Shown: positions 45,000 through 59,631 of the stretch, piece by piece | Layout: each line of letters starts with the position of its first letter | How positions within the stretch are numbered: the stretch's first letter is position 1 | Source: Lachnospiraceae bacterium JLR.KK002 | GTDB taxonomy: Bacteria; Bacillota; Clostridia; Lachnospirales; Lachnospiraceae | DNA: 64,000 bases | Reading direction: 5' to 3' | Assembly (NCBI GenBank): GCA_036941025.1 | Contig: JAYMNP010000001.1 | Span: 62,001-126,000 of the forward strand | Notes under the pieces: generated by a model | Told to the model about the DNA's origin: nothing | The model's input: the letters and a program-made list of their open reading frames with translations, nothing else | The model's database searches: none | Translations under genes and position numbers: made by a program

Positions 45000-45017
45000 A
45001 CGGAATACCCGGCGCGC

Positions 45018-45533
45018 TTATCTTGCCAGCATTTCTCTGATTTCTCCCACATACATGGTATGAAAATTATTTTCCTCTTTGCCGGAATACCATTTTTCCT
45101 TAATTTCCGGATTCAGGAAATGGGCTTCTGTAATGGGTACAGCCGCCATTTTTCTGCAGATCAGAATGAAATTGCCCTCGTCCACAAAGGGAACGTCGTT
45201 ACTGTAATTTACATTCAGCCCGGAGGTTTTGAATTTATCCTCCTGTCTGCCGGATACGATGCCGAAATACTTCAGGTCATTTTTGTATTTTTTGTCAAAA
45301 AAGGTACAGGAAAAGCAGTCTCCGTTGTCGATAAATTCTTTGGTGTATCTGTTCTCGCGTACAAAGATAAAAGCAGTGTTCTGCCCCCAGAGAACGCCAA
45401 GTCCGCCCCAGCTTGCAGTCATGCCATTGACTTTTTCCTGATTTCCGGAAGTAATGATCATCCATTCGTCCGACAGTTTTGTAAAAGGATTTAATTCTAA
45501 CAAATCAACGGGATAAGATTGAAATTGATGCAT
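45018..45533 (-). CDS. Flavin reductase-like (flavoredoxin) domain protein
   Basis: A 171-residue FMN-binding split-barrel protein. LSDEWMIITSGNQEKVNGMTASWGGLGVLWGQNTAFIFVRENRYTKEFID is the typical flavin reductase/flavoredoxin N-terminal half with the Thr-Ala-Ser FMN contact, and FLNPEIKEKWYSGKEENNFHTMYVGEI ends the fold. These transfer electrons between flavins and partner proteins in anaerobes. It stands alone with AAAGGAG upstream. Confidence 0.85.
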   Translation of the reverse strand: MHQFQSYPVDLLELNPFTKLSDEWMIITSGNQEKVNGMTASWGGLGVLWGQNTAFIFVRENRYTKEFIDNGDCFSCTFFDKKYKNDLKYFGIVSGRQEDKFKTSGLNVNYSNDVPFVDEGNFILICRKMAAVPITEAHFLNPEIKEKWYSGKEENNFHTMYVGEIREMLAR

Positions 45534-45748
45534 AATAAGACTCCTTTGCTGTTTACTTTGCTGTTTGTTGAGCTACTTTGAGTATACCTCATTTTACCAC
45601 AGTTAAGATATGCAGAAAAGTTATTAAAAACACAAAATTATATAATAAATAGTTATGGGAAATATAAGCCCGGAGAATAATCTTGACAGTACTCAAAAAA
45701 AGTATAATAATTGATAAAACGATACGAAAACAGGATGGAGGAGACGTT

Positions 45749-46816
45749 ATGGAGATTAAATTTGTAAAAAGAGATGTTTTAAAAGAGAAACCGGATCAGA
45801 AAAATCTGGGATTCGGCAAATATATGACAGACTATATGTTTGTGATGGACTGGGACAAAGGAACCGGCTGGCATGACGCCAGAATTGAGCCCTACGGGCC
45901 GGTCTCCATCAATCCTTCCTGTGTGACATTGCATTATGCCCAGGAGACCTTCGAGGGACTGAAGGCATACCGCACCGGGGATGACAGAATTCTTCTGTTC
46001 CGGCCGGAAATGAATGCAAGGCGGATGATTACGTCCAATGAGCGTCTGTGTATGCCGGGTGTTCCGGAGGATATGTTTGTGAAGGCCGTAGAAGAACTGG
46101 TAAAGGTGGAGAAGGACTGGATCCCCTCGGAGCCGGAGACTTCCCTGTATATCCGTCCCTTTGTATTTGCCACGGAGGCTTCTCTGGGAGTCCATATGGC
46201 TGTTTCCTATAAATTTATGATTATCTGCTGTCCGGTAGGGGCCTATTATCCGGAAGGAATCAATCCGGTGAAAATCCTGGTGGAAGACGAACTGGTACGT
46301 GCTGTGAAAGGCGGAACAGGATTTACCAAATGCGGCGGCAATTATGCGGCTTCCATTCTGGGACAGGTCAGGGCCGAGGAAAAAGGATGTACCCAGGTGC
46401 TCTGGCTGGACGGTGTCAACCGGAAGTATGTAGAGGAAGTCGGCACCATGAACATTATGTTCAAAATTAACGGTGAGATTTATACAGCTCCCATTGAAGG
46501 AACCGTGCTTCCCGGTGTAACCAGAGATTCCATTATCCATATCTTAAAGGACTGGGGCTATAAAGTAAATGAAACCCATCTTTCGGTAGACGATCTGATG
46601 AAGGCCGGACATGACGGTACGCTGGAAGAGTCTTTCGGTACCGGAACGGCGGCAGTGATCTCTCCGGTGGGAGAATTTGTTTACCGGGACGATGTGGTTA
46701 CGGTAAATGATTTTAAAATCGGGGAACTGACACAGCGGCTTTACGACTATCTCACCGGTATCCAGTGGGGAAATGAAGAAGATAAATATGGCTGGACACG
46801 GGAAGTAAAACTTTAG
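45749..46816 (+). CDS. ilvE: Branched-chain amino acid aminotransferase
   Basis: A 355-residue fold-type IV PLP enzyme, last step of valine, leucine and isoleucine synthesis. It is of the longer class II type: FGKYMTDYMFVMDWDKGTGWHDARIEPYGP, LHYAQETFEGLKAYR, RPEMNARRM, KCGGNYAASI (with the PLP Lys region), WLDGVNRKYVEEVGTMNIMFKING and GTVLPGVTRDSI. The start at 45749 has ATGGAGGAG upstream. A promoter-like TTGACA and TATAAT lie at 45683 and 45703. It complements ilvBN 6 kb upstream. Confidence 0.93.
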   Translation: MEIKFVKRDVLKEKPDQKNLGFGKYMTDYMFVMDWDKGTGWHDARIEPYGPVSINPSCVTLHYAQETFEGLKAYRTGDDRILLFRPEMNARRMITSNERLCMPGVPEDMFVKAVEELVKVEKDWIPSEPETSLYIRPFVFATEASLGVHMAVSYKFMIICCPVGAYYPEGINPVKILVEDELVRAVKGGTGFTKCGGNYAASILGQVRAEEKGCTQVLWLDGVNRKYVEEVGTMNIMFKINGEIYTAPIEGTVLPGVTRDSIIHILKDWGYKVNETHLSVDDLMKAGHDGTLEESFGTGTAAVISPVGEFVYRDDVVTVNDFKIGELTQRLYDYLTGIQWGNEEDKYGWTREVKL

Positions 46817-46990
46817 GAGGCCGTAAGAAAACCGCAGATTCCTGCTCTGTCTTTATATTTTTTTAAGAAAAAAGCAGGATAGATTTAAAGATTTTTTCAC
46901 AGAATGATGTTAGTATATCCGTGTAAAGAAAGAATATATTACATCCGGTATACTGACATCCGGTGAAAAAGGAGAGAAAATGAGAAGAAT

Positions 46991-47182
46991 ATGAGAAGAA
47001 AACAGGATGAATTTGCGGATATCAATTTTAACGGGAAGAAAAAGCGGGGAAATATGTTTGTGCTGATGGCGGCAATCCTGGCAGTCTGTATCAGCGGTAT
47101 CCTGTATGCAAGAAAGCTGCAGATGGACGCCAGATATATCAGTATGAACCTGGAAGAAATTCATATGGAACAGGAAATATAA
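46991..47182 (+). CDS. Small membrane protein, unknown
   Basis: A 63-residue peptide with a basic N-terminus (MRRKQDEFADINFNGKKKRGN), one membrane helix (MFVLMAAILAVCISGILYARKL) and a short charged helical tail, somewhat like the start of FtsL/DivIC-type proteins but too short to claim that. AAAGGAGAG lies 13 bases upstream; a nearer ATG at 46980 gives only four codons. It may be a truncated gene. Confidence 0.5.
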   Translation: MRRKQDEFADINFNGKKKRGNMFVLMAAILAVCISGILYARKLQMDARYISMNLEEIHMEQEI

Positions 47183-47183
47183 T

Positions 47184-47231
47184 ACGCACCTGCGCGGGAA
47201 GGAAAAATTCCGGAACGTGTCAGGTGCGTAA
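47184..47231 (+). terminator. Possible terminator
   Basis: ACGCACCTG pairs with CAGGTGCGT around about 28 bases that include a GGAAGGAAAAATTCC hairpin. No clear T-run. Confidence 0.5.
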
Positions 47232-47310
47232 TGCTTTCCGTGAAAATTCCGGGAACATTTTCTCCGGTTTTACATAAACTGTAAATAAGAGCAGAGATTT
47301 CGAGGTAGTT

Positions 47311-47999
47311 ATGCAAAATCATCAATTGCGTGCGGCCCAGACAGAGCACGTGGACAATGGAACCATGAAAGTCCAGGTGACTTCCACCCTGGGGCTGATT
47401 CCGGTGGAGGGCGCCAGAATCACCATTTCCTATACCGGAGATCCGGAGAGCACCCTGGAACAGATTTCTACGGACGGAGAAGGCCAGTCGGAGGTTCTGA
47501 CACTGGCAGCACCGCCTCTGGAATACAGTATGGAGCCGGAGCAGCCGGTTCAGCCTTATGCGGAGTACACCGTTCAGGTGGAGGCGGAAGGATACCGGCC
47601 TGTCAGCATTGAAGGTGTGGATGTATTTTCCGGAGAGCTTTCTTTGCAGAATGTGCGGATGGAGCCTCTGGAGGTATCGGAGCAGGATGTGAAAAATATT
47701 GTGATTCCGGCCAATACCCTGTTCGGAAATTTCCCGCCCAAGATTGCGGAGGCCGAAATTAAGCCGGTGGACGAGAGCGGAGAAATTGTACTGAGCAGGG
47801 TGGTAGTCCCGGAATATGTGGTGGTACATGACGGGGCGCCCGGCGATTCCACTGCCAGCGATTATTATGTGAAATACAAGGACTATATCAAAAATGTGGC
47901 CTCCAGTGAAATATATGCCACCTGGCCGGACAGCACCATCCGGGCCAATATTCTGGCCATTATGTCATTTACCATGAATCGCGTGTACACAGAATGGTA
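47311..47999 (+). pseudogene. SpoIID-like/peptidoglycan-binding protein, N-terminal half (interrupted by the integrative element)
   Basis: The gene starts at 47311 with GAGGTAG upstream and is open to 47999, where the integrative element enters; the frame then runs a few codons into foreign DNA. Residues 8-115 form a beta-rich carboxypeptidase-regulatory-like domain (MKVQVTSTLGLIPVEGARI). From about 155 (YIKNVASSEIYATWPDSTIRANILAIMSFTMNRVYTEWY) it resembles the SpoIID/LytB amidase-enhancer fold. The rest is at 55436-56021, and joining GTA to GTA restores a continuous protein of about 425 residues. It has no signal peptide, so a spore or forespore location is possible. Confidence 0.85.
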
Positions 48000-49669
48000 T
48001 GGGAATCACCACATATTCTGGGTTGTGGAATGAAGTCATTAAGGTTGATTTTGAAACGAATAACGACTTCTGTTTTCTTTACATCAATACGCTCTACGAG
48101 CTTATTTACCAGTACCCGCTTTGTTGCCACATCTGCATTTAGAAACACATCCTGCCATGTTGGAATCTTATTTTTAATATCTTCCCATTCGTTGATTGAT
48201 ACAGAAGTGCTTTTCAATTCCAGTTCCTTTAAGGTAACAACATCCTGTTGTTGCTGTGCCTGTTCTTTATGCTTTTTGATGATTGCTACCAGTTCTTCCA
48301 ATGACAAAGGATAGTCACCAGTCATAGCATTTGGAATATTTTCTTCCATAATCCGAATCTTGTCCTGAATATTTTCAAGATTCTGTTTTTCCTTTTTTAA
48401 TTCAGCTTGTTTCCGTTTCTTTTCTTGATTCTGATTGTTCTCAATCTCATTAAAAATACTTTCATTTTCCTGTAATTTCCCAATGTATTGTGCGATGGAT
48501 TCAAATACAATCGGTTCAATCATGTCGGCTCGGATTTGCTTAGTCTTAACATGGGTTACCCCTTGCCATGCATTTTGGCATTTATATATCGCAATTTTGC
48601 TTGCTCTTTTTTCTCCTGTACCTTTTATCGTCCAATAGTTATATTTACTCCCATTTGTCATTTTACTTCCACAATATCCGCAATATAAAACATCAATTAA
48701 GGCTAACATACCATCATTCTTTCTAATCACATTCACATCCTTATGCTCTAATGCTTTTATGTATTTATCGCCCCGGCGTTTACGTCGTTCCTGTGTTTTA
48801 TTCCATGTATCACCGTCGATAATCATAATACTTTCGTTTGCGTCAATAGAAGTAATCCAATTCTCACTGTCAAGCCTGTGATATTGTCCGTTGATTCGCT
48901 CCCTGCGTTTATAAGCTGTATGTCCGGCATAGATGGGATTCGTTAAAATGCTTGTGATAGTTCCGCCTTTCCATGTGTCATTGGGGGCAAGGTTTTTATA
49001 GGTTTCATGCCTGTTCAAAACGCTGGCAATTTTGGAAGAACCGTACTCCTTATTGAGAGATAGGTCATAAATATAACTGACAACCTCTGCCTGTTCTGGA
49101 ACAATAACAAGATGATGTAACGCCCGTCCGTGTTTACTGATTTCTCCTGATAACTCTAATTTGTAGCCATAAGGGGCTTTTCCACCCATGAATTTTCCTT
49201 TCTGCACTAACTTCTGGGCGGTATCTTTTACACGCATACCTGTATCAGCGCTTTGTTTCTGGGCATTACCGTATCTCAAAGCTAACATCATTTGCCCCAT
49301 TGTATCATCTGTTTCAGGAGAAATGCAGCCGTCTTTCACGGTGTAAATATCCACACCACATTTTTTCAGAGCCATTACATAGGCTCCGATTTCCCACATA
49401 AGTCTGCCAATTCTATCGTCTTTGTATGCCACCAAAATATCATATTCTTTTGCCTGTGCGTCCTGTAAGGCGTTTTGAAGTACATTTCTGTCTGCGACTG
49501 AATTTTTATATCCGCTGTTACTTCCCTCAAAGTATTCCTTTGAATCGAGTTGCCATTCTTCGTGTTTTTTTACATAGTCTTTTACAATTTCTCTTTGCAC
49601 ACTCAAATCACCGTCCGGCTCTAACTGCTGATTTGAACTAACGCGTAATAACATTCTCACTTTTTTCAT
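47969..49669 (-). CDS. Large serine recombinase (integrase/excisionase)
   Basis: A 566-residue site-specific recombinase. The resolvase catalytic domain (residues 1-145) has Ser11 in LLRVSSNQQ and the helpers in KDDRIGRLMWE; the recombinase domain follows (GKAPYGYKLEL, NPIYAGHTAYKRRER), then a zinc ribbon (LYCGYCGSKM with a later Cys) and a Lys/Glu/Gln-rich coiled coil near 430-500 that controls synapsis. GAAAGGACG precedes the start. The last eight codons (ILCTRDSW) lie past attL in host DNA, so the C-terminus differs between integrated and circular forms. Confidence 0.94.
   Translation of the reverse strand: MKKVRMLLRVSSNQQLEPDGDLSVQREIVKDYVKKHEEWQLDSKEYFEGSNSGYKNSVADRNVLQNALQDAQAKEYDILVAYKDDRIGRLMWEIGAYVMALKKCGVDIYTVKDGCISPETDDTMGQMMLALRYGNAQKQSADTGMRVKDTAQKLVQKGKFMGGKAPYGYKLELSGEISKHGRALHHLVIVPEQAEVVSYIYDLSLNKEYGSSKIASVLNRHETYKNLAPNDTWKGGTITSILTNPIYAGHTAYKRRERINGQYHRLDSENWITSIDANESIMIIDGDTWNKTQERRKRRGDKYIKALEHKDVNVIRKNDGMLALIDVLYCGYCGSKMTNGSKYNYWTIKGTGEKRASKIAIYKCQNAWQGVTHVKTKQIRADMIEPIVFESIAQYIGKLQENESIFNEIENNQNQEKKRKQAELKKEKQNLENIQDKIRIMEENIPNAMTGDYPLSLEELVAIIKKHKEQAQQQQDVVTLKELELKSTSVSINEWEDIKNKIPTWQDVFLNADVATKRVLVNKLVERIDVKKTEVVIRFKINLNDFIPQPRICGDSHTILCTRDSW
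47981..48022 (+). other. attL of the integrative element
   Basis: The host half is ACAGAATG and the element half is GGGAATCACCACATATTC, joined at GTA (47997-47999). The element half, read in reverse, is GAATATGTGGTGATTCCC, the mirror of the arm at the other end. Confidence 0.8.
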
Positions 49670-49721
49670 AAGTCAATCGTCCTTTCTTTCTAACCAGCAG
49701 AGGGTTATCCCTCTGCTGACG

Positions 49722-50120
49722 TTATGAGATTTTTTGTAACTGTTCCCGTAAGACACTTGAAAGAATAGACTTTATTTCTTGATGTAAAATATCCGTCTGT
49801 TCTGGTTGTGTAGGGAACTCAAGCACAACCTTTATACCATTTATTTTCTGTTCAATCTGTTGATAAGTAGTATCGGACATGAAAATCTCCGGGCAAATGA
49901 ATCTTATTATATGACTATTCCGTAAAATTTTGTCCCATGCAAAAGAGGTATTCCCTTTGGGGTGATATACACTTCCTTGATACGTTCTTAAATGGAATAA
50001 TTTGATTGTGTCTTTCCAACTGCACCCGTAATCTTTTTTCATAATAACTATATCCTCGCATTCATAATCATGGTAAGTCCGCTTGCGTTTTGTATAAATT
50101 TCTGTAATTAAATCAGTCAT
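49722..50120 (-). CDS. Unknown protein behind an attenuator, element cargo or regulator
   Basis: A 132-residue soluble protein starting MTDLITEIYTKRKRTYHDYECEDIVIMKKDYGCSWKD, with AAAGGAGAAG upstream. No domain is recognised. It is separated from its promoter (minus TTGACA at 50426-50421, TATAAT at 50402-50397, 18 bp apart) by about 270 nt of leader that ends in an intrinsic terminator, so expression is probably conditional. It precedes the recombinase gene by 50 bases on the same strand and may be co-transcribed, so it could regulate excision. This is inference. Confidence 0.6.
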   Translation of the reverse strand: MTDLITEIYTKRKRTYHDYECEDIVIMKKDYGCSWKDTIKLFHLRTYQGSVYHPKGNTSFAWDKILRNSHIIRFICPEIFMSDTTYQQIEQKINGIKVVLEFPTQPEQTDILHQEIKSILSSVLREQLQKIS

Positions 50121-50152
50121 AAGAACTTCTCCTTTCTTTGTGCATTGGGAAA

Positions 50153-50226
50153 CAAAAAAAGCGGTGTAACATATATGAACCCCAATCAGCATAATCACTA
50201 ATTGGAATTTATATTTGTTACACCGC
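50153..50226 (-). terminator. Leader terminator (attenuator)
   Basis: On the minus strand GCGGTGTAACA and TGTTACACCGC form an 11-pair stem, with CCAAT/ATTGG pairing inside the loop, followed by seven T, 33 bases before the start codon at 50120. The leader from about 50390 contains an in-frame open stretch starting near 50294 (VGEIYRRKYRVQRKF) that could be a translated leader. Confidence 0.75.
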
Positions 50227-50610
50227 CTGCACATACTTGGCACTGTCAGAAATTTCCTCTGAACTCGGTACTTCCTGCGATATATTTCCCCCACGACCGC
50301 CTTATCAGCACCAATATACTTGGAAATTAAGCATACCGGTTATGCTGTCCGTCGGCACTACTGTGAGAAAAGCACAATAATATTTTATTTTTCCATATTA
50401 TACCACATATCTTTTTTCGCTGTCAATCGTATTTTCTTTTTTGTGAATATGATACAAAAAACATTGAAAAAATAACCAAAAGTTTGGTTAGCTATTCCAA
50501 ACATGCATAAAGCCCTAAAAGCAGTGCTGTACTATGGGAATCTGTCAGAATCTCCCCTCTCAATTTCGGGGATGAATACGATTTCTGATGTCTGGGGATT
50601 ACTGTATCCA

Positions 50611-50757
50611 AAAATCGTATTTATTGAAAACCACGCCAGTATTGGAAAAAGCCTGTTTTGAATACATTTGTCTACGATTTAGAATTGTACCGTATTCAAA
50701 ATCGTATTCATTGAAAACCACGCCAGTATTGGAAAAAGTCTGTTTTGAATACGATTT
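50611..50757. repeat. Two 60-bp repeats, each with inverted arms (87-bp period)
   Basis: Units at about 50611-50670 and 50698-50757 share the sequence ATTGAAAACCACGCCAGTAT and flanks. In the second unit AAAATCGTATTCA (50698-50710) is answered exactly by TGAATACGATTTT, giving a 13-pair stem with a 34-base loop; the first unit has a worn version. GTCTACGATTT follows each unit. They may be replication iterons, a structured RNA or a small element duplicated in tandem. Confidence 0.7.
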
Positions 50758-50867
50758 TGGGGTGTCTACGATTTTTTTCAAACCTTTTACTTTCCAAAAC
50801 ACTATTTTTTAATTATTCACTTTCCAAAAATGCTAAAATATATTGATATATCAATATATTATTCATG

Positions 50868-51045
50868 AATAGTTAAAATTTGTACAATTTAACTATTACA
50901 AATACCACACATACATAGAATGACCGTGCGGTAGGGCTTGTCGATACCGCACGGTCATTTCCCGGCGTTTTTGCACACCGCAAAGCGTCTTATAAAATGT
51001 AATAGTTAGTGATTAATTAAAACTTTTTGTTTTAACTATTGCATT
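50868..51045. other. Origin-like region upstream of rep
   Basis: A perfect 14-pair hairpin ATGACCGTGCGGTA (50920-50933) with TACCGCACGGTCAT (50945-50958), loop GGGCTTGTCGA, lies between AATAGTTA half-sites: ATAGTTAAA/TTTAACTAT at about 50869-50896 and ATAGTTA/TAACTAT at about 51002-51040. There is no T-run, so a replication origin or Rep operator is more likely than a terminator. Confidence 0.6.
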
Positions 51046-51068
51046 TTTACCCCCATATTTGGTACAAT
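51039..51068 (+). promoter_or_regulatory. rep promoter
   Basis: TTGCAT at 51039-51044 and TACAAT at 51063-51068, 18 bp apart. The -35 overlaps the last TAACTAT half-site, suggesting autoregulation. Confidence 0.6.
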
Positions 51069-51099
51069 GCTTATATAAGATAAGAAACGAGGTGAAAAT

Positions 51100-51837
51100 A
51101 TGGCTAAAAGATTGGCTGACTTAGGGATTGCACAAATTACACAAGATTTTTTACCCGAACACTGGAACTGGACAGATGACGAAAAGAAACAGCTTGGAAA
51201 TATAGATGAAATGGGAAAAATTATCAAAACACGGTTAGAAAAAGCAGGATGTGAGATTCAGGAAATGTACGCTATTGAACATGATAAGGATGAAAAAAAA
51301 TTATGGAATGAGTATAAACACGCTTATGAAATTGCATTCACGTCACACCATGCCCATTTTATTGTCAAATTCAAAAAAGGAAAGACACTCCCCAAAATTG
51401 CCAGTGCCATCGGCATTGGGGAATCTTATATTGAAAAGCCAAAGTCGGGGCGTTACGCCTATGACAATATGCTGTCTTATTTAATACATATCAAATACCC
51501 CCAGAAGTACCAGTATGCCCCCAGTTCCGTCCGGACAGTCGCCGGTAAAGATTACATGGAGCATTACAGGGAACAGCGTGAAACATGGATGAGGGGAAGA
51601 GCCGAAAAAATTACCATGACCGCAAAGGGACTTCTCAACTTCTTAAAGGTCGGCATTTTGAGCGGTGAGATTGCTATTGAAGATATTTTTATGAATGAGG
51701 AATGGAAACTCACCTATGCTTTGCATAAAAAAATGTTGGACGAAGCATTTGAAACAAAACTTCTTGTAGCGAAAATGGAAAAAAATTTTAAAGAGTATGG
51801 AAATTGCCGGGGATATATCCTAAAAAAACACTCCTAA
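51100..51837 (+). CDS. HUH-type (Rep_2-like) replication initiator
   Basis: A 245-residue plasmid-type Rep. The HUH endonuclease core shows YAIEHDKDE (motif near residue 58), HHAHFIVKF (the metal-binding His-x-His near 86) and YAYDNMLSYLIHIKYPQKYQY (catalytic Tyr region near 125-140), as in pMV158-type rolling-circle initiators. The C-terminal 80 residues are helical. GAGGTG precedes the start. Presence in an integrated element suggests that the excised circle can replicate. Confidence 0.82.
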   Translation: MAKRLADLGIAQITQDFLPEHWNWTDDEKKQLGNIDEMGKIIKTRLEKAGCEIQEMYAIEHDKDEKKLWNEYKHAYEIAFTSHHAHFIVKFKKGKTLPKIASAIGIGESYIEKPKSGRYAYDNMLSYLIHIKYPQKYQYAPSSVRTVAGKDYMEHYREQRETWMRGRAEKITMTAKGLLNFLKVGILSGEIAIEDIFMNEEWKLTYALHKKMLDEAFETKLLVAKMEKNFKEYGNCRGYILKKHS

Positions 51838-51967
51838 AAACAACAGGGACAAACAATTTAGGGACAGAAATAGATCCCAACATTCTGTTAAGTCCTATTT
51901 TTATTTTATCGTAACAGGGATGTGGGGGCAGTATTCCAGTCCCCCATATGCTCACATAAAAAACATT

Positions 51968-51999
51968 AAAGGATAACCCTTTGTGAGAGGGTTATCCTT
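51968..51999. terminator. Bidirectional terminator
   Basis: GGATAACCCT pairs with AGGGTTATCC around TTGTGAG, with T-rich DNA on both sides. It separates rep from the convergent secreted-protein gene. The 51838-51967 interval shows nothing else. Confidence 0.85.
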
Positions 52000-52013
52000 T
52001 ATTTGCAAGCAAA

Positions 52014-52655
52014 TTATTCTTTTTCAGCACCACACTTAGAACAAATGTATTTTGTTTTTGTTACAGTTGTAGTGATTTCGATGTCAGAACAGCTACCATG
52101 ACCGTATTCATGGTTCATACCCATTTCGACACGATGTGCTTGCCATTCTTTGGCTGAGTTGAATACTTGTCCACAAGCACACTGAGAACCTATTACTGTC
52201 ACTTCTTCTTCAACATATTTTGTTACCCATGTATGCTGACAAGTCGTATTATTGTTATCAGTATTACTGTTATTCTCATCAGTATTACTGTTCGGCTTAT
52301 TGCTTACAGCCTTTCTTTTGTCTTTTACAGTAACTTTACATTTCAAAGTTCTGTTCCCAACTTTCACTTTTACAATAGCAGAGCCTTTCTTCTTCGCAAC
52401 GACTTTCCCTTTCTTGCTTACCGTAACAACTTTCTTATTAGAAGAAGTCCATTTCACTTTCTTCCCAGCAGTGTTCTTCACTTTCAACTGGACAGTCGGC
52501 TTTGTCTTTTTCTTCGTGATAGTCAAAGTCACTTTGGACTTGTTCAACTTCGGTGCTTTCTTCGTAGCCGCCTCAGCTGTCACAGGCATAGCCAGTGTTA
52601 ATGTAAGTGCGATAACAACGATAGTTGCGATTGATTTTCTGATGATGTTCTTCAT
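52014..52655 (-). CDS. Secreted Ig-like (Big_2) protein with Cys/His C-terminal modules
   Basis: A 213-residue exported protein: signal peptide (SIATIVVIALTLTLAMPVTAEA, cut near residue 31), a Lys-rich Big_2 domain (VKWTSSNKKVVTVSKKGKVVAKKKGSA), an Asn-rich linker, and a tail with C-x2-H, QCACG with a later H-x6-H, and CSKCG pairs: CQHTWVTKYVEEEVTV, SQCACGQVFNSAKEWQAHR, YICSKCGAEKE. The tail looks like repeated zinc-binding knuckles. The start at 52655 has AAAGGGG upstream. As element cargo it may act at the cell surface, but the role is unknown. Confidence 0.75.
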   Translation of the reverse strand: MKNIIRKSIATIVVIALTLTLAMPVTAEAATKKAPKLNKSKVTLTITKKKTKPTVQLKVKNTAGKKVKWTSSNKKVVTVSKKGKVVAKKKGSAIVKVKVGNRTLKCKVTVKDKRKAVSNKPNSNTDENNSNTDNNNTTCQHTWVTKYVEEEVTVIGSQCACGQVFNSAKEWQAHRVEMGMNHEYGHGSCSDIEITTTVTKTKYICSKCGAEKE

Positions 52656-52881
52656 AATGAATCCCCTTTCTTTGGTATATGCTAAATATTCATTTTTGTG
52701 AAAAAATTCGTCATTTTTCGACATATGTTAGCTTAATTAAAAATTATACTCTCTTTTATCAGTTTTGTCCATTTCAAAATCAGTTCCTTTCTATTTTTAC
52801 TTTTGCACCCGCTCCCTTAATTATAGCCTAACGCAATAGATACAGAATAAGTGAAAAGAGATACAGAACCGGGGCAATAAT

Positions 52882-52986
52882 CCCCCACCGCAGAGGTGGG
52901 GAAAAGCAAGGGTCAAGGGAGTGCAACTCCTTGCAAAATTATCGAAATTTATTTCGATGTATTTTGCTACAGCGAACGGAACGAGA
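52882..52986. other. Candidate origin of transfer (oriT)
   Basis: Upstream of the relaxase gene lie CCCCACC/GGTGGGG (52883-52901), a GCAAGG/CTCCTTGC inverted pair ending at about 52934, and a longer palindrome GCAAAAT-ATCGAAAT with ATTTCGAT-ATTTTGC at about 52933-52967. A hairpin cluster directly before a MobV gene is where its oriT is normally found. The rest of 52656-53136 is AT-rich and holds promoters only. Confidence 0.6.
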
Positions 52987-53163
52987 TACTTTTTTCGGGA
53001 AAGAAATAACCTATCGCCATAGACAGCACAACCTGGCAAAAGCCAGAAAATAACCGGACATAAAAATACAGAAAAAAATTTCAAAGAATACTTGACAAGG
53101 CATTGCATTCTGAAGTTTTTCGATTATCATTAAAGTATGATAATAAGAAATGAGGTGATTAAA

Positions 53164-54438
53164 ATTGGTTATTTATCATTTGACGCCAGTGTAAAAATTC
53201 ATTATTCCGGCAAATACACAAGCACAAAAACAGGTAAATCTGGAAATATGGGGATTGCCGGATATATCCGGCATATTGACAGGAGTACAGACAAAATGAA
53301 TGGCTGTGAGGTACAGCATGGCAACCCTGATATAAATTCTGACCTCACATTAGAAAACGAATCTTATTATAAAGATTCTAACGGAGAATGGCAGAGAACA
53401 AGCCACTCTAAAGATATGGTAAATGCAATTAACAGACGTATTGAATACGCAAAAGAGCATGGGGCAAGGATTTCCACAAAAGGGAAAAATGATACAGTGA
53501 TTGTCCGTCCGCTTGTCCTGCAAATGGGTAACGATTCAATTACAGGACATGAAAATACATGGATGTGGGATTTAATTGGGATTCTTGAAGAAGAATTTGG
53601 GACAGACAATATCACTGGTTTTTCAATCCATAAAGACGAGACAAACCCACATATCCACGTTTCATTCGTGGCTTGCCACGAAACAGACAAAGACGGTGAA
53701 GTGAAATGTTCTATTTCACAAACTAAGTTCTTCAAAAACCCAAAACAATTAGCCGGGTTACATAGGAAATTTCGTAAAAAATTACTGGATAAAGGATATG
53801 ACATTGAATTAGAAAACAAGCCGATTGAGGAACAGCTTGCCGGGTATTATGATAAAAACGGTGAGTGGCACCAACAAGGCTTAACCCCAGACCAACTCAA
53901 AGAGTTGACTGATAGAGAATTAAATTTAAGAATGGAGGAACTCAAAATGAGCATTAAAAGAAATGATTTGGAAAAATTGGAAATGGCTGTTGCCGATATT
54001 ATGGCGACTTCAAAAGTAGAGCAGGATAAAATTAAAAAAGAACGTGAAATTTTATCTGCACAGCAAAACGCCCTTGAAAACGACAGGGCAACCGTACAGG
54101 CGCAATCAAAGGCTCTCAAGGTTAGGGAAATGAATGTACGGAAAAGGGAACTGGAAGTAGCGGAACTGCTTGAAAAAATCCAGTCCACTGCTGAAACCTG
54201 CAATCAGATTCTTTCAGAAGAAAAACACTTGGACACTAAATTTTTAGAGTTCTTAGACCGTGAGGGCAGACGGAATGGCAAGGAATACCGCAAGCCTTTT
54301 GAATATTGGTATAAAAAGTTCTTGAATGAACGTAAAAAGAAACATTCAGACTGGTGGAATGATATGTTAGAGCGTTCATGGATGAACGATACCGACGATT
54401 TTGATGACGAAAATACCGGCTATGATTTTTCAGCATAA
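53164..54438 (+). CDS. MobV-type relaxase (plasmid mobilization protein)
   Basis: A relaxase of about 424 residues that nicks oriT and leads DNA transfer with a helper system. The MobV/Pre motif III is clear: FSIHKDETNPHIHVSFVA (H-x-D-E-x2-P-H-x-H). The C-terminal half is a long coiled coil (about residues 250-350, EKLEMAVADIM to REMNVRKRELEVAELLEKI). The only good ribosome site, GAGGTG, lies 6 bases before an ATT codon at 53164 that would begin (M)GYLSFDASVKIHYSG, the family's usual start; an in-frame ATG at 53137 has no site. I choose the ATT start. Confidence 0.88.
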   Translation: MGYLSFDASVKIHYSGKYTSTKTGKSGNMGIAGYIRHIDRSTDKMNGCEVQHGNPDINSDLTLENESYYKDSNGEWQRTSHSKDMVNAINRRIEYAKEHGARISTKGKNDTVIVRPLVLQMGNDSITGHENTWMWDLIGILEEEFGTDNITGFSIHKDETNPHIHVSFVACHETDKDGEVKCSISQTKFFKNPKQLAGLHRKFRKKLLDKGYDIELENKPIEEQLAGYYDKNGEWHQQGLTPDQLKELTDRELNLRMEELKMSIKRNDLEKLEMAVADIMATSKVEQDKIKKEREILSAQQNALENDRATVQAQSKALKVREMNVRKRELEVAELLEKIQSTAETCNQILSEEKHLDTKFLEFLDREGRRNGKEYRKPFEYWYKKFLNERKKKHSDWWNDMLERSWMNDTDDFDDENTGYDFSA

Positions 54439-54448
54439 GTCGTTAAGA

Positions 54449-54494
54449 ACAAGCATGGTCTGCGATACGGAGTATCGCAGATCATGCTTGTTTA
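54449..54494. terminator. Terminator after the relaxase
   Basis: ACAAGCATG pairs with CATGCTTGT and TCTGCGATAC with GTATCGCAGA around a short loop, followed by TTTATG. Confidence 0.85.
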
Positions 54495-54517
54495 TGTTTA
54501 TGGAAGGCTCTTTCCCC

Positions 54518-54709
54518 TCAAAATACATACTTCATAACGTCTTTGATAATAGCACCGTAACTGTCGCCCTCAATATTGACTTTCCTTGTCCCATTGCCTT
54601 TAAAGGTAATCAATGCGTGGCTGTCATCCATAAGGGACAGACCGATAATGTCAAGGTTTGCAGATACAAGCGTTAATTCAAAAACCTTTATAAATTCTGT
54701 TTTGCTCAT
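54518..54709 (-). CDS. Small element-encoded protein, unknown
   Basis: A 63-residue protein starting MSKTEFIKVFELTLVSANLDIIG, with AAGGATGTGGAG upstream of 54709. It has an alternating beta pattern (DSHALITFKGNGTRKVNIEGD) and no membrane helix or known motif. It follows the J-domain gene by 18 bases on the same strand, so the two are likely co-expressed. Confidence 0.6.
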   Translation of the reverse strand: MSKTEFIKVFELTLVSANLDIIGLSLMDDSHALITFKGNGTRKVNIEGDSYGAIIKDVMKYVF

Positions 54710-54727
54710 AGTACTCCACATCCTTTC

Positions 54728-55204
54728 TTAGCCGATTGCGTACTGTTTTGATTTGTTGTTGACTTTCTTAGAACCGTACTTCTGCCGGATTTCCTCAAGA
54801 GAAACCTCGCCTTTGTGATAGCGTACATAATCCCCATAGTGCCAGCACCAGCATTTCTTTTTCGGCGCATACTTGAAACCGACATTCTTTAATAACTCTC
54901 TGTACTCATACCCACTGTGTACCCATATCCATGAACCTATGATTTCCACATCAGAATTGATATGGATAATCTTGTTTATAACGCTCTTAAAAGCGTCATT
55001 TTCAGCCTGATAGTCATAGTTGGTACTTTCCTTGTCTGTCTGCTTTTCCTCACTTAAAATGGAAAATAAGCGGTCGTATTCAGCGTTAATTTCCTGTGTA
55101 ATTTCCACGCTACCGCCCTCATTATCTGGATGATATTTCTTTAATAACTCTCTGTATCTTTGACGTAATTCCTCTATTGTCTTAATCCCTGTAAAGTATT
55201 TCAT
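54728..55204 (-). CDS. J-domain (DnaJ-like) protein of the element
   Basis: A 158-residue protein with an N-terminal J domain: TIEELRQRYRELLKKYHPDNEGGS contains the HPD tripeptide that stimulates Hsp70 ATPase. The C-terminal 90 residues (DNA-binding-like VEIIGSWIWVHSGYEYRELLKNVGFKYAPKKKCWCWHYGDYVRYHKGE in type, Trp/Tyr/Lys-rich) are shared by many clostridial mobile elements. It may recruit host DnaK to the Rep or relaxase complex; this is inference. A bidirectional hairpin lies upstream at 55275. Confidence 0.82.
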   Translation of the reverse strand: MKYFTGIKTIEELRQRYRELLKKYHPDNEGGSVEITQEINAEYDRLFSILSEEKQTDKESTNYDYQAENDAFKSVINKIIHINSDVEIIGSWIWVHSGYEYRELLKNVGFKYAPKKKCWCWHYGDYVRYHKGEVSLEEIRQKYGSKKVNNKSKQYAIG

Positions 55205-55274
55205 AAGCCTGTACTCCTTTTTTAAAAAATCACCCGACTATTAAATTCACAGCTTAGAAAAGGGCATAAAAAAT

Positions 55275-55315
55275 GGACTACCCGACTATAAATCGGGTAA
55301 TCCGTATTTTTTAGG
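55275..55315. terminator. Hairpin with T-runs on both sides
   Basis: GGACTACCCGA pairs with TCGGGTAATCC, preceded by six A and followed by a T-rich tail. On the minus strand it lies 70 bases before the J-domain start, so it may attenuate that gene or shield the element from host transcription. Confidence 0.65.
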
Positions 55316-55414
55316 AGCAAGGCTCAAAAAGTTATTTATTTGTATGCTAAATCATACCCTTTTTTACCATGTAGATTGATGATTAACTCGTTAAAAATCA
55401 GCGAACGAAAGACC

Positions 55415-55455
55415 TGAATATATGGTGATTTCGGTGTACCGGAACAAAGGCTATG
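55415..55455 (+). other. attR of the integrative element
   Basis: The element half GAATATATGGTGATTTCG joins host DNA CCGGAACAAAGGC at GTA (55436-55438). Confidence 0.8.
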
Positions 55456-56021
55456 ATTTTACCATTACATCTTCCACTGCCTATGACCACAAATGGGTGT
55501 ATGGAAGAAACTATTTCTCCAGTATTTCCCGTGTGGTAGATGAAATGTTTACAAACTTCCTGTCCAGGCCCAATGTAAAACAGCCCATTCTGACTCAGTA
55601 TTGCGACGGACAGCGGGTGACCTGTCCCAACTGGCTGAGCCAGTGGGGCTCCAAATACCTGGGAGATCAGAACTACAGCGCCATAGAAATCCTTCGTTAT
55701 TATTATGGAAATAATATGTACATCAATGAGGCGGAAGAGATTTCCGGTATTCCGGCTTCCTGGCCCCGTGAAAATCTGCAGGTGGGCTCCAGAGGCGACA
55801 AGGTGCGCCAGATGCAGGAGCAGTTAAACCGGATTGCCCAGGTCTATACCTCTATTCCACGAATTACAGCAGACGGTTCTTTCGGCCCCGCCACAGAGAC
55901 GGCTGTCCGCAGATTCCAGTCCGTGTTCGGACTTCCTCAGACCGGGGTGGTGGATTATGCCACCTGGTATAAAATTTCCGAGATTTATGTGGGAGTCACC
56001 AGAATTGCAGAACTCACGTAA
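55436..56021 (+). pseudogene. SpoIID-like/peptidoglycan-binding protein, C-terminal half
   Basis: Continuation of the gene split at 47999. It reads YRNKGYDFTITSSTAYDHKWVYGRNYFSS (end of the SpoIID-like domain), a central region with CDGQRVTCPNWLSQWGS, and a C-terminal PG_binding_1 domain (LQVGSRGDKVRQMQEQLNRI, GSFGPATETAVRRFQSVFGLPQTGVVDYATW) that would dock on peptidoglycan. An ATG at 55422 inside the element gives an open frame with no good ribosome site, so translation of this half alone is doubtful. Excision would restore the gene. Confidence 0.85.
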
Positions 56022-56112
56022 TTCTTTTTATTGACAGAAGTGGGAAAAAAAGGTAAAGTAGAAAAGTAGCGAAAGAACAAAACAGGAACAAACATACAGG
56101 GAGGAAACACAC

Positions 56113-56652
56113 ATGGCGGATTTGAAGGGAACAAAGACACAGAAGAATCTGGAAGCGGCATTTGCAGGAGAATCCATGGCAAGAAATAAATATTCTTATT
56201 TTGCCAGCAGGGCAAAAAAGGACGGATATGTACAGATTGCCGCTATTTTTGAGGAGACTGCGGCAAATGAAAAGGAACATGCCAAAATGTGGTATAAACT
56301 TTTGAACGACGGTGTGGGCACTACGGAGGAAAATCTGAAAGCTGCTGCTGAAGGCGAGAATTTCGAGTGGACCGATATGTATGATCAGTTTGCGAAAGAG
56401 GCAAGAGAAGAAGGCTTTCACGATATCGCAGACCTGTTTGAAGGTGTTGCCAGAATCGAAAAAGAGCATGAAGAAAGATATCGCAGACTTCTTGATAATG
56501 TAACCGGTAAGAAAGTATTTTCCAAAGATGGAGACGTAATCTGGCAGTGCAGCAACTGCGGACATATCTGTGTTGGAAAAGAAGCACCGGAGGAATGTCC
56601 GGTATGTGCGCATCCTCAGGCTTATTTCCAGGTAAAAGCAGAAAATTATTAA
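56113..56652 (+). CDS. Rubrerythrin
   Basis: A 179-residue peroxide-reducing non-haem iron protein of the anaerobic oxidative-stress defence. The diiron four-helix bundle carries the ligands in [32 protein letters not shown] and [17 protein letters not shown] (E-x2-H type). The C-terminal rubredoxin centre is [30 protein letters not shown] precedes the start. Superoxide reductase lies 4.9 kb downstream. Confidence 0.94.
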
Positions 56653-56657
56653 AAAGA

Positions 56658-56698
56658 AAGCCGCCCTCGCTGTCCGGAGACTGAGGGCGGCTTTGTAA
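56658..56698 (+). terminator. Rho-independent terminator
   Basis: AAAGCCGCCCTC pairs with GAGGGCGGCTTT, followed by GTAAAT; the T-run is short. Confidence 0.75.
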
Positions 56699-56736
56699 AT
56701 ACCATCGTACTGGGTGGAAGGAAAAGTGGAAAAATT

Positions 56737-59631
56737 ATGAGAAAATTCAGGAGAAAAATCGGATTTTTTTGTATGTTGCCAGTATGTATCCTGCTGACTG
56801 CCATTATGATATGTTCAGAGCCAGGGTACGCTTCTTCGGAAGGCACGGAGGAAAAAAAGGAAATTATTGTAGGTTACAGCGATAATGATGATATGATTCA
56901 GAAGGACAGCAACGGCAACCTGTATGGTTACGGGATTACTTACCTGGACGAGCTTTCCGGGTATACCGGATGGGACTATACATATGTGGAGCTTTCTCCG
57001 GAAGAACGGATGGAAGGTCTGCTGGACGGCCGGGTGGATTTGCTGTGCAGTGTGCACAGAGACTGCAAAGAACAGGAAGAACTGCTGTTCAGTGAGGACA
57101 GCTCCGGGCTGGAATACGGTATGCTTTGTGCACTGCTGGACAATAACGAAATTTTTTATAATGATTATGAAGCGATTAACGGGAAGAAAATCGGAATTGA
57201 CAGAAATACGGATTTGGAGCAGAGCCTGAAAACCTATGGAGAAACCCACGGGATTACTTATGAGCCCGTGTACCTGGACGGGCTTTCGGAACAGATGGCG
57301 GCTTTGAAAAATAAAAAGGTGGACATGGTGCTGCTGTCCAGCCTTCAGGAAACGTACCGCTGTAAATATGTGGGAAAAGCCGGACTGGAGAAAGAATATT
57401 TTGCAGTCCGCAGGGACAGTGAGTCCCTGATGGAGGAACTGAATCGGGCGAACGCGGCCTTACAGCAGGAAAAGCCTTTTTATATTTCTTCCATATATGA
57501 GACTTTCTATGGGAATCCGGAAGAAAAACTTACGGGAATCACAAGAAAGGAATATGAATTTATTAATCGGAAAGAGCCCATAAAAGTGGCCTGTGACGCC
57601 AACAGCTATCCGCTGGAATATGTGGATGAGGAAACAGGAGAATATACCGGCGTATATGCTGCGGCCATGCGGCTGATTTCTGAGGAAAGCGGGCTGAATT
57701 TTGAATTTATCCCCCTGGTGAATTTTTCCGAAGCCTGGGATCTGGTGGCCAGCGGAGAGGCAGATCTGATTGCCGGAAATTATGGAAACGACAGAACCGC
57801 GGAATATTACCATATGACTTATTCACAGAGTTATCTGTCGGCGGAATATACCCTGATTGGAGGAAAAGGACTGGAAATCAGAGACGGTATGTCCATTGCC
57901 CTTCCTCAAAATTATGTGGGGCTGCGGTATTTTTTTCAGACAGAGGAGCCCGGCTGGAAAATTGCCCTTTACGATGACGTCAGCGGCTGTCTGAAAGCGG
58001 TGAATCAGGGAGAAGCAGATGTTACGGCGGTAAATGCCATATTTCTCCAGACCGTCTATAATCTGAACCGTTACGACAACCTGAAAATTGTGCCTAATAT
58101 GACCAAAACGTTCCCCATCAGTGTGGGAATCGGGAATAACCACACGGAAGAACTGAAAAGTATTATTGACAAGGCCATCTACCAGATTCCCGCAAGTGAA
58201 TTTGAAAAATGTATTACGGAACATGCCATCAATGTGGTTTATGAGCCTTCCCTGATGGAGACAGCGGGCAAGTTTTTTCCCCACATCTGTATAACAGTGC
58301 TGGCAGTGATACTGGCTGTATTTGTTATTATCCGGAAAAGGGAGAAGCATTTTCATCATCTTGCCATGACAGATTCCATTACCGGAATGTGGAACCGGGT
58401 GAAATTTTATAAAGAAGTAAGGGATATTCTGGAAAAAAACAGGGATAAAACATATTTGCTGATAACGCTGGATATCAATAAATTTAAGTTTATCAATAAT
58501 GATTTCGGCTCCAAAGCCGGAGACTGTATTTTGAGTGTGATGGGAGAACGGATTCAGGAAATATTCGGAGAGAGGGGATATACTGCCAGGAATACGGCTG
58601 ATATTTTTCTGATTCTCATAGAGGAAATCTATTACCGGCCGGAAATGTTAGAACCGCTGAACAAACCCATTTATTTTAACAACAACGGAAAGCGCCAGTA
58701 TTATAAAGTGGTGGTAAAGGCCGGAATCCGCAGGATTATGCCGGGAGAGCCCGGAACAGACCTGATACCCTATGTGGACCAGGCGTCCATTGCCCGGAAA
58801 ACCATCAAGGATACGGCGGGGGTAAGCCAGGCTTATTACGACGAAAATATGAAACATATTCTGGAAAAGGAAAGCGCTATTGAAAAGCGCATGGAAGAAG
58901 CGTTGGAAAACGGAGAATTCCAGGTATATCTTCAGCCTAAATATGACCTTCGGTCCGAGCGGATTATGGGAGCGGAAGCTCTGATACGCTGGATTGACCC
59001 GGAGAAAGGGCTGATTCCGCCGGATGAGTTTATCCCCCTGTTTGAGAAAAACGGATTTATACTGAAACTGGATTTTTTTGTATATGAGGAAGTACTGAGG
59101 CGGATGGCTCAGTGGAAGCAGGAGGGAAAGCCTTCCATCTGTGTTTCTGTCAATGTGTCAAGGGTACATATCAGTACGCTGGATTTCTTCGACAAGCTGA
59201 ACCGCCTGGTGGACAGATATCAGATTTCCAGACGAGATTTTGAACTGGAGCTGACGGAAACCATTATAGGAGGAGAACTGGATCTGGTAAAAGCATTTAT
59301 TCAGGAATGCAAAAAAGAAGGATTTAAGGTGTCTATTGATGATTTCGGAAGCGGGTATTCTTCCCTGAATCTGTTGAAGGAGCTTCCCGTGGATGTTTTG
59401 AAAATAGATAAGGGATTTCTGGATGAAGCAGAAGAATCCATGCGCAGCAATATTATTGTGGAGCAGGTGGTGGAGATGGCGAAACGGATGGAAATCGGAA
59501 CATTGTGCGAAGGTGTGGAGACGGAACGCCAGTTGTCTTTCCTGAAAAAAATCGGCTGTGACATGGCGCAGGGTTATCTGTTTTCCAGACCCATTCCCGT
59601 GACGGAATTTGAGCAGATGATACAGGCCTGA
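56737..59631 (+). CDS. Two-SBP, degenerate GGDEF, EAL cyclic-di-GMP phosphodiesterase
   Basis: A 964-residue membrane sensor-enzyme. After a signal anchor it has two extracytoplasmic solute-binding (SBP_bac_3) domains (about residues 40-245 and 285-500), a membrane helix near 512-530 (ICITVLAVILAVFVII), a GGDEF fold whose catalytic motif reads NTADIF instead of GGDEF, and a full EAL domain: GAEALIRW, ELELTETI, SIDDFGSGYSS, LKIDKGFL, CEGVETE and QGYLFSRP. I infer that it degrades c-di-GMP in response to a bound amino-acid-like ligand and that the GGDEF part is regulatory only. Confidence 0.92.
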   Translation: MRKFRRKIGFFCMLPVCILLTAIMICSEPGYASSEGTEEKKEIIVGYSDNDDMIQKDSNGNLYGYGITYLDELSGYTGWDYTYVELSPEERMEGLLDGRVDLLCSVHRDCKEQEELLFSEDSSGLEYGMLCALLDNNEIFYNDYEAINGKKIGIDRNTDLEQSLKTYGETHGITYEPVYLDGLSEQMAALKNKKVDMVLLSSLQETYRCKYVGKAGLEKEYFAVRRDSESLMEELNRANAALQQEKPFYISSIYETFYGNPEEKLTGITRKEYEFINRKEPIKVACDANSYPLEYVDEETGEYTGVYAAAMRLISEESGLNFEFIPLVNFSEAWDLVASGEADLIAGNYGNDRTAEYYHMTYSQSYLSAEYTLIGGKGLEIRDGMSIALPQNYVGLRYFFQTEEPGWKIALYDDVSGCLKAVNQGEADVTAVNAIFLQTVYNLNRYDNLKIVPNMTKTFPISVGIGNNHTEELKSIIDKAIYQIPASEFEKCITEHAINVVYEPSLMETAGKFFPHICITVLAVILAVFVIIRKREKHFHHLAMTDSITGMWNRVKFYKEVRDILEKNRDKTYLLITLDINKFKFINNDFGSKAGDCILSVMGERIQEIFGERGYTARNTADIFLILIEEIYYRPEMLEPLNKPIYFNNNGKRQYYKVVVKAGIRRIMPGEPGTDLIPYVDQASIARKTIKDTAGVSQAYYDENMKHILEKESAIEKRMEEALENGEFQVYLQPKYDLRSERIMGAEALIRWIDPEKGLIPPDEFIPLFEKNGFILKLDFFVYEEVLRRMAQWKQEGKPSICVSVNVSRVHISTLDFFDKLNRLVDRYQISRRDFELELTETIIGGELDLVKAFIQECKKEGFKVSIDDFGSGYSSLNLLKELPVDVLKIDKGFLDEAEESMRSNIIVEQVVEMAKRMEIGTLCEGVETERQLSFLKKIGCDMAQGYLFSRPIPVTEFEQMIQA

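Follow-up and report, generated by a model that had tools for sequence, protein, structure and literature searches.

The best-described systems with which the locus reported here can be compared are elements that interrupt sporulation genes. In the skin/sigK systems of Bacillus subtilis and Clostridioides difficile, an element with a large serine recombinase splits a mother-cell sporulation gene in frame, and the gene is made whole again once the two ends are joined; C. difficile expresses the recombinase constitutively and leaves the direction and timing of excision to a factor of the mother cell (PMC5025042; this and the other papers given by PMC number are cited from excerpts of their text). 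The same intervening-element logic applies to SPbeta/spsM, vfbin/spoVFB and vrin/spoVR (PMC4191935), to gin/gerE, from which it appears that an intervening element need not be a phage (PMC5595907), and to yin/yabG, whose host gene is sigma-K-controlled (PMC10747680); in these excerpts each is described in a single strain or a few strains. Here we analyse a 7,439-bp element that interrupts sleC, the gene for a spore cortex-lytic enzyme, in Lachnospiraceae bacterium JLR.KK002. It lies in a stretch of 64,000 nucleotides (assembly GCA_036941025.1, contig JAYMNP010000001.1, positions 62,001 to 126,000 of the forward strand), which we call the window and in whose coordinates positions are given.

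Like skin, this element encodes a large serine recombinase and splits a sporulation gene in frame, such that joining of its ends would restore that gene, and like yabG the host gene appears to be under sigma-K control. It differs from skin in its host, sleC, and in its content, which resembles that of an integrative mobilizable element (IME), with a relaxase and a replication initiator, rather than that of a phage. It differs from the spsM, spoVFB, spoVR, gerE and yabG elements in that one clade occupies sleC in many genera and a second clade occupies another site in the same gene. Tn4451-type IMEs also combine a serine recombinase with a MobV-type relaxase (PMC5704250), but the sleC element has a strict single-gene specificity and an att site inside the recombinase frame. 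Searches of an open-access collection of papers, without bioRxiv, found no description of sleC-interrupting elements. In our reading the element is a skin-like one that intervenes in sleC and is excised precisely, probably in the mother cell, to make the gene whole; we put the probability of this reading at about two in three.

An element that splits sleC

The original prediction, made from the letters of the window, had placed here an integrative mobilizable element with exact borders in a "SpoIID-like/peptidoglycan-binding" gene whose halves rejoin in frame at a shared GTA. The borders and the rejoining were borne out, since GTA triplets stand at both ends (47997-47999 and 55436-55438) and the two halves, once joined, are in frame without a stop. 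The element has a G+C content of 37.4%, against 45.5-45.7% in the flanking 3 kb on each side. The features at its borders are as follows.

47255 to 47281, plus strand: sigma-K-type promoter of sleC (AC, 16-nt spacer, CATAAACTG), 38 nt before the ATG
47311 to 47999, plus strand: 5' part of sleC; its open reading frame (ORF) extends to 48033 within the element
47972 to 49669, minus strand: large serine recombinase (Pfam), 566 codons before the stop at 47969-47971; its frame runs across attL
47977 to 48018, no strand: attL, with the crossover GT at 47997-47998
55416 to 55457, no strand: attR, with the crossover GT at 55436-55437
55436 to 56021, plus strand: 3' part of sleC, with the peptidoglycan-binding domain and the last part of the SpoIID-like domain

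The split gene is thus real, and it is better named sleC than by its domains. Its left half by itself gives weak domain matches only. The intact protein of a congener (L011) matches the "Spore cortex-lytic enzyme pre-pro-form" of PDB entry 9h68_A (E value 2.5e-128, residues 12-421 of 422). The insertion point lies within a stretch, TEWYRNKGY, common to the two; we therefore identify the host gene as sleC. The insertion falls inside the SpoIID match (residues 186-245, slightly under the Pfam cut-off) and N-terminal to the peptidoglycan-binding domain (347-407). The bacterial attachment site, attB, is a conserved coding site at the codons Trp-Tyr (TGGTAC/T); the element recombines its attP with this site in sleC and splits the SpoIID-like domain.

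As predicted, the rebuilt attP is symmetric about a central GT. It forms a 42-bp dyad, GAAT-N16-GT-N16-ATTC, and matches itself about the GT at 16 of 20 positions, a score reached by none of 200,000 random 20-mer pairs drawn from the element. The Resolvase, Recombinase and Zn_ribbon_recom domains of the recombinase all exceed their Pfam cut-offs and, together with the dyad attP, its central dinucleotide and the single target gene, they class the enzyme by sequence as a large serine recombinase of the site-specific type, in agreement with the kind of site and element first proposed. Phage recombinases are 21-26% identical to it (10 of 361 records listed). Since GT is read on the same strand at both crossover cores, their recombination would cut the element out and not invert it.

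An intact gene at this point in related genomes, for which the original prediction had called, exists both within the species and in the genus. Genome G349, which is labelled as the same species, has the empty site: its sleC agrees with the joined halves at each of 1,269 bases (0 mismatches), and the two flanking regions reach 99.2% identity over 2,591 bases and 99.7% over 1,114 bases. Excision, if it occurs, would thus restore a spore gene, as had been supposed. The further suggestion that the insertion may act as a reversible switch remains a conjecture: an invertible switch has two inverted sites, whereas the cores here have the same orientation, and excision in a terminal cell, as in skin/sigK, is a closer model. 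A stochastic form of the switch can also be imagined, in which excision and re-integration in growing cells yield mixed spores that differ in cortex lysis, a form of bet-hedging. It would agree with the presence of intact and interrupted states inside one species, with joined attP forms among database proteins (below), and with the C. botulinum yin element, of which both states are reported from one culture (PMC10747680). At E <= 1e-60, on the other hand, this recombinase has no match anywhere in the G349 assembly, so its empty site reflects an element that is absent or lost, not a switched state. Serine integrases, moreover, are normally one-way in the absence of a directionality factor. We regard such a switch as very improbable.

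The remaining genes between the borders are these.

49722 to 50294, minus strand: 190-aa ORF directly upstream of the recombinase, candidate directionality factor; no Pfam family above cut-off
50397 to 50426, minus strand: sigma-A-type promoter sequence TTGACA-N18-TATAAT upstream of the 190-aa ORF, found by reading the sequence
51100 to 51837, plus strand: plasmid-type replication initiator (Rep_OBD, Pfam)
52014 to 52724, minus strand: protein with a Big_2 bacterial Ig-like domain (Pfam), cargo
53137 to 54438, plus strand: MobV-type relaxase (Mob_Pre)
54518 to 54721, minus strand: 67-aa ORF of no known family (ORF list, Pfam scan)
54728 to 55204, minus strand: 158-aa protein with a weak DnaJ-domain match under the curated Pfam cut-off

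A Pfam scan of the seven ORFs between the borders found the recombinase and the relaxase and none of the transfer-channel families. The epithet "mobilizable" stands in so far as Mob_Pre is above the Pfam cut-off, and is weakened in so far as the NCBIfam MobV model reaches 61.4 bits against a cut-off of 100. On this make-up (serine recombinase and relaxase, no conjugation machinery), assignment of the element to the IMEs is supported. No plasmid DNA match to the element was found, and an Rfam search of positions 45000-58000 gave no match. The whole assembly (G000) has 20 places that match the Recombinase family PF07508, and is thus rich in such elements.

Sites in the genus and the family

Among 29 genomes of the genus, sleC is cut at the same codon pair in 14 and intact in 14; in the remaining one (G008) the contig ends inside sleC, and it was left unassigned. 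The recombinase (E <= 1e-60) was found in 12 of the 29, each time inside a split sleC, and in 0 of the 14 intact genomes; in the two interrupted genomes that gave no match (G009, G019) contigs end near the junction. These recombinase counts are lower bounds, since five genomes, including the intact G022 and G023, had 48 of their 57-68 candidates scored. The right half of sleC, read in the correct frame, is 91-98% identical in most congeners and 85-89% identical in more distant ones, and we dropped the idea of swapped C-terminal cassettes. Recombinases 100% identical to that of the window occur in G016, whose sleC 5' half is 85% identical, and at locus L067, where that half is 64% identical; identical recombinases in hosts with so divergent a sleC point to recent transfer. 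In G018 (L050) the recombinase match, some 3 kb away from the 3' half, is in two pieces, one of which has a stop.

A wider search used a profile of ten recombinases, and the best 80 of 86 relatives were kept, which correspond to 79 loci; several of these coincide with sites of the genus survey (L068, L069, L084 and L085 among them). One of the halves of sleC or, in a few, of a paralogue is contained in 76 of the 79, and the other 3 end at the recombinase. The recombinase match ends no more than 250 bp from such a half in 70 loci (68 of the 79 and two viral contigs), of which 19 face the 5' half and 51 the 3' half. Thus elements of one recombinase clade repeatedly insert at the same sleC site in sporulating Lachnospiraceae, and the same codons are cut across many genera and in both orientations.

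Element orientation follows the core dinucleotide. The G024 element, for instance, whose recombinase shares 92% identity with that of the window, has the opposite orientation and a reversed core; opposite orientations among relatives are separate insertions with a reversed core dinucleotide (the window against G024 and L069). A palindromic TA core, which would permit either orientation, was rejected: in 29 of 34 att sites (33 fetched loci and the window, all with both ends present and a clean core) the dyad is best centred on GT, or AC in type A, and in 5 it is best elsewhere. The mean dyad score over these 34 is 10.5 of 18 positions at GT/AC and 4.3 at other centres. One attP is common to the window, L067 and L146; the last of these (IMGVR_UViG_3300035327_000291) is a contig filed as viral that carries a near-copy of the element integrated in sleC.

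The 34 loci with both ends have elements of 1,993 to 11,291 bp, the smallest in a paralogue; an element of 14,601 bp occurs in one member of the genus. The recombinase frame is open in 64 of 67 complete copies, including minimal elements of 2,719 bp in sleC (L111) and 1,993 bp in a paralogue (L144). At L119, L144, L071 and L075 relatives of the recombinase occupy an apparent sleC paralogue, which is 33-49% identical to the sleC halves.

Breaks are found elsewhere in sleC as well. We checked 37 genomes chosen for a split, partial or unusual sleC match in a survey of the family, and counted break positions by eye: the break is near residue 296 in about 16 and near 150-178 in three, and the others are mainly cases of the first site or paralogues. 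Elements at the second site (residue ~296; loci L205, L206, L207 and L208) are as small as ~2.6 kb (G275, G303, G267). The recombinases of G275 and G267 are large serine recombinases ~22% identical to that of the window and 44% identical to each other; at L205 and L207 the recombinase was shown to be of a different clade. These second-site and other breaks make sleC a repeated target of distant recombinase clades. The minimal sleC-intervening element at L205 encodes a 142-aa protein with a Spo0A_C domain (L205:2574-2999). At L102, L114 and L129 there is another sleC break, after KYLGD. The gene is apparently split near residues 150-178 in three genera (L212 in G336, G242 and G149).

Selection on the split gene and its probable repair by excision

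That the element is cut out in the mother cell is the most likely reading because split sleC alleles show normal purifying selection and keep a sigma-K-type promoter. Of 30 loci (L009-L038), 25 have the sigma-K consensus AC-N15-17-CATAnnnTA before sleC, in an upstream region that is otherwise divergent; the background is 16 in 6,000 shuffled 75-mers. The window (L009) and L010 miss it by the last base only, which is G in the window and A in the consensus, and L033, L034 and L038 are without the AC. In C. difficile, sleC has a sigma-K promoter, belongs to that regulon and is essential for germination (PMC3789822). Over 299 genomes, nearly one for each genus of the family, sleC was found in 192 and SpoIVA in 194: both in 189, sleC only in 3, SpoIVA only in 5 and neither in 102. 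These are lower bounds, with at most five candidates scored per genome for sleC and SpoIVA and at most four for the recombinase; SpoIVA is present in all 8 genomes of the sample that gave a match to this recombinase. By its promoter sequence and its co-occurrence with SpoIVA, the interrupted gene classes as a late mother-cell gene.

No stop codons are present in the sleC halves of the 14 interrupted alleles, as far as these are readable. On terminal branches the ratio of synonymous to nonsynonymous changes is 909.5:193.5 for interrupted and 985.9:234.1 for intact alleles (Fisher p 0.31; G008 left out, G019 without its right half, G004 and G027 with a partial right half, outgroup G028 uncounted). 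Most terminal branches may predate the insertion, which tells against this comparison, and the key case is therefore the pair G004/G027. The first-site elements of these two genomes, 8,858 and 8,772 bp long, share 92.8-97.8% identity along most of their length and lie in surroundings that are 94-97% identical, as would fit an insert inherited from a common ancestor. Since the two split, sleC has undergone 62 synonymous and 7 nonsynonymous changes (25 and 4 in G004, 37 and 3 in G027), a pattern that indicates purifying selection acting on the gene in pieces.

We suggest the following course of events. The large serine recombinase would join attP with attB in sleC, an insertion that could be tolerated if sleC is needed solely in the mother cell. 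During sporulation, precise excision in the mother cell would rebuild sleC, by analogy with skin/sigK, and whole SleC would be made there and packed into a spore whose chromosome retains the element. Growing cells probably make the recombinase, and a putative mother-cell directionality factor probably sets the direction. In the window the recombinase unit has a sigma-A-type promoter sequence ahead of it, a likeness to the constitutive recombinase of skin; it falls beyond the 600 bases that were scanned for promoters upstream of recombinases. The C-terminal part of the 190-aa ORF is similar to short ORFs at the equivalent place in several related elements.

The competing explanation is an ordinary IME, for which sleC is a convenient conserved landing site, dispensable or redundant and inactivated by the insertion, with excision rare and unregulated. 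Serine-recombinase IMEs are reported to disrupt dispensable genes in the excerpt of a review (PMC5704250). The mobilization set (recombinase, MobV-type relaxase and replication initiator), the recent spread between species, the sigma-A-type promoter sequence and other hydrolases under the SleB cut-off would all suit such an element. Selection, however, is not relaxed in the split alleles, and the 62:7 ratio comes from a pair whose insert is apparently inherited; half of the genus is interrupted, yet sleC tracks SpoIVA across the family; elements cut down to little beyond the recombinase mostly keep it open; and a distantly related recombinase clade has likewise settled in sleC. We consider an ordinary IME unlikely, though deserving of serious attention.

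Several further points weigh against mother-cell excision. Excision and its timing in sporulation are our inference. The 600 bases upstream of the recombinases show no enrichment of sigma-E/K promoters over shuffles, and give no support to sigma-E/K control of the recombinase. No directionality factor was identified, and the 190-aa or short ORF beside the recombinase is a candidate only. Each congener has 2-6 matches to the SleB profile, all under the curated cut-off and one usually being sleC's own binding domain; because such matches occur in every congener, SleC may be partly redundant. A match above that cut-off was found in 0 of the 29 congeners, and SleB as a clear backup was dropped on this ground, while the lower-scoring matches remain. 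The copy in the window looks recent, being absent from G349, whose sleC is identical, and having a recombinase that recurs unchanged in G016 and at L067, so that the selection argument depends on other genomes and chiefly on one pair. In that pair, sleC has a second break at the same point in both genomes (L159, L160, L165), and the 61.5-kb interval at this break in G027 (G027:C1:112949-174466) has no PF07508, PF00239 or PF00589 match, and thus no recognizable recombinase of the serine or tyrosine kind.

A recombinase frame that crosses attP

In most of the elements the recombinase frame stays open up to the element's end, passes the core and terminates in host DNA. In the window the last residues and the stop of the recombinase are read from host sleC DNA, and in a closed circle the frame would carry on into the opposite end of the element.

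55336 to 55434, minus strand: "circle tail" of 32 codons in the recombinase frame after attP closure (frame analysis)

A conserved tail is read there in the window and in 14 of 39 fetched loci with that end (15/40), or in 21/46 when six hand-added loci are counted (L048, L049, L053, L058, L059 and L061, all of which carry the motif); the tail motif is lacking in 25 of the 40 rows and is thus not universal. Differences among the 15 distinct tails are 0.41, 0.285 and 0.61 for the three codon positions, and the nonsynonymous rate dN is below the synonymous rate dS in all 37 pairs with a usable dS (of 105 compared). The tails had been picked for an amino-acid motif read in this frame, a choice biased towards a coding pattern. 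Outside the motif the differences are 0.49, 0.43 and 0.63, with the third position still highest, less sharply.

Among the best 120 of 2,416 database relatives, P0114, P0116 and P0117 have the recombinase fused in frame to such a tail, the same one in P0114 and P0116, and a search with the tail region matched these three and gave one partial match besides. We read them, from their sequences, as probable circle or tandem forms with a joined attP. Viral contigs were searched for the attP junction of the window's own element, the kind of junction to which the original prediction had pointed as a check, and gave no match. Integration might swap a conserved strand at the recombinase C-terminus ("...RSLIxNELIIKxxGKxxYxxEY") for a few host residues and excision restore it, and the two resulting recombinases would form a state sensor that could set direction. 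We offer this tentatively and think it unlikely, its odds having been lowered slightly because the tails were selected by motif and six rows were added by hand.

In the integration-dependent immunity of mycobacteriophages, attP lies inside the repressor gene, and integration alters the C-terminus of an element-encoded protein there as it would here; the difference is that the altered protein here is the recombinase itself, a serine enzyme, and that the functional effect is putative. If the swap is real, excision would make both sleC and the recombinase gene whole and integration would split both, a possible case of integration editing the integrase itself.

SleC is the enzyme by which the cortex is opened when clostridial spores germinate. 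With half of the genus carrying sleC in pieces, either germination depends on mother-cell DNA excision or many spore-formers have abandoned SleC. If excision does take place, sleC would join the skin-like genes, and the frequency of such rearrangements would become surveyable. The recombinase clade offers a large natural set of single-gene integrases.

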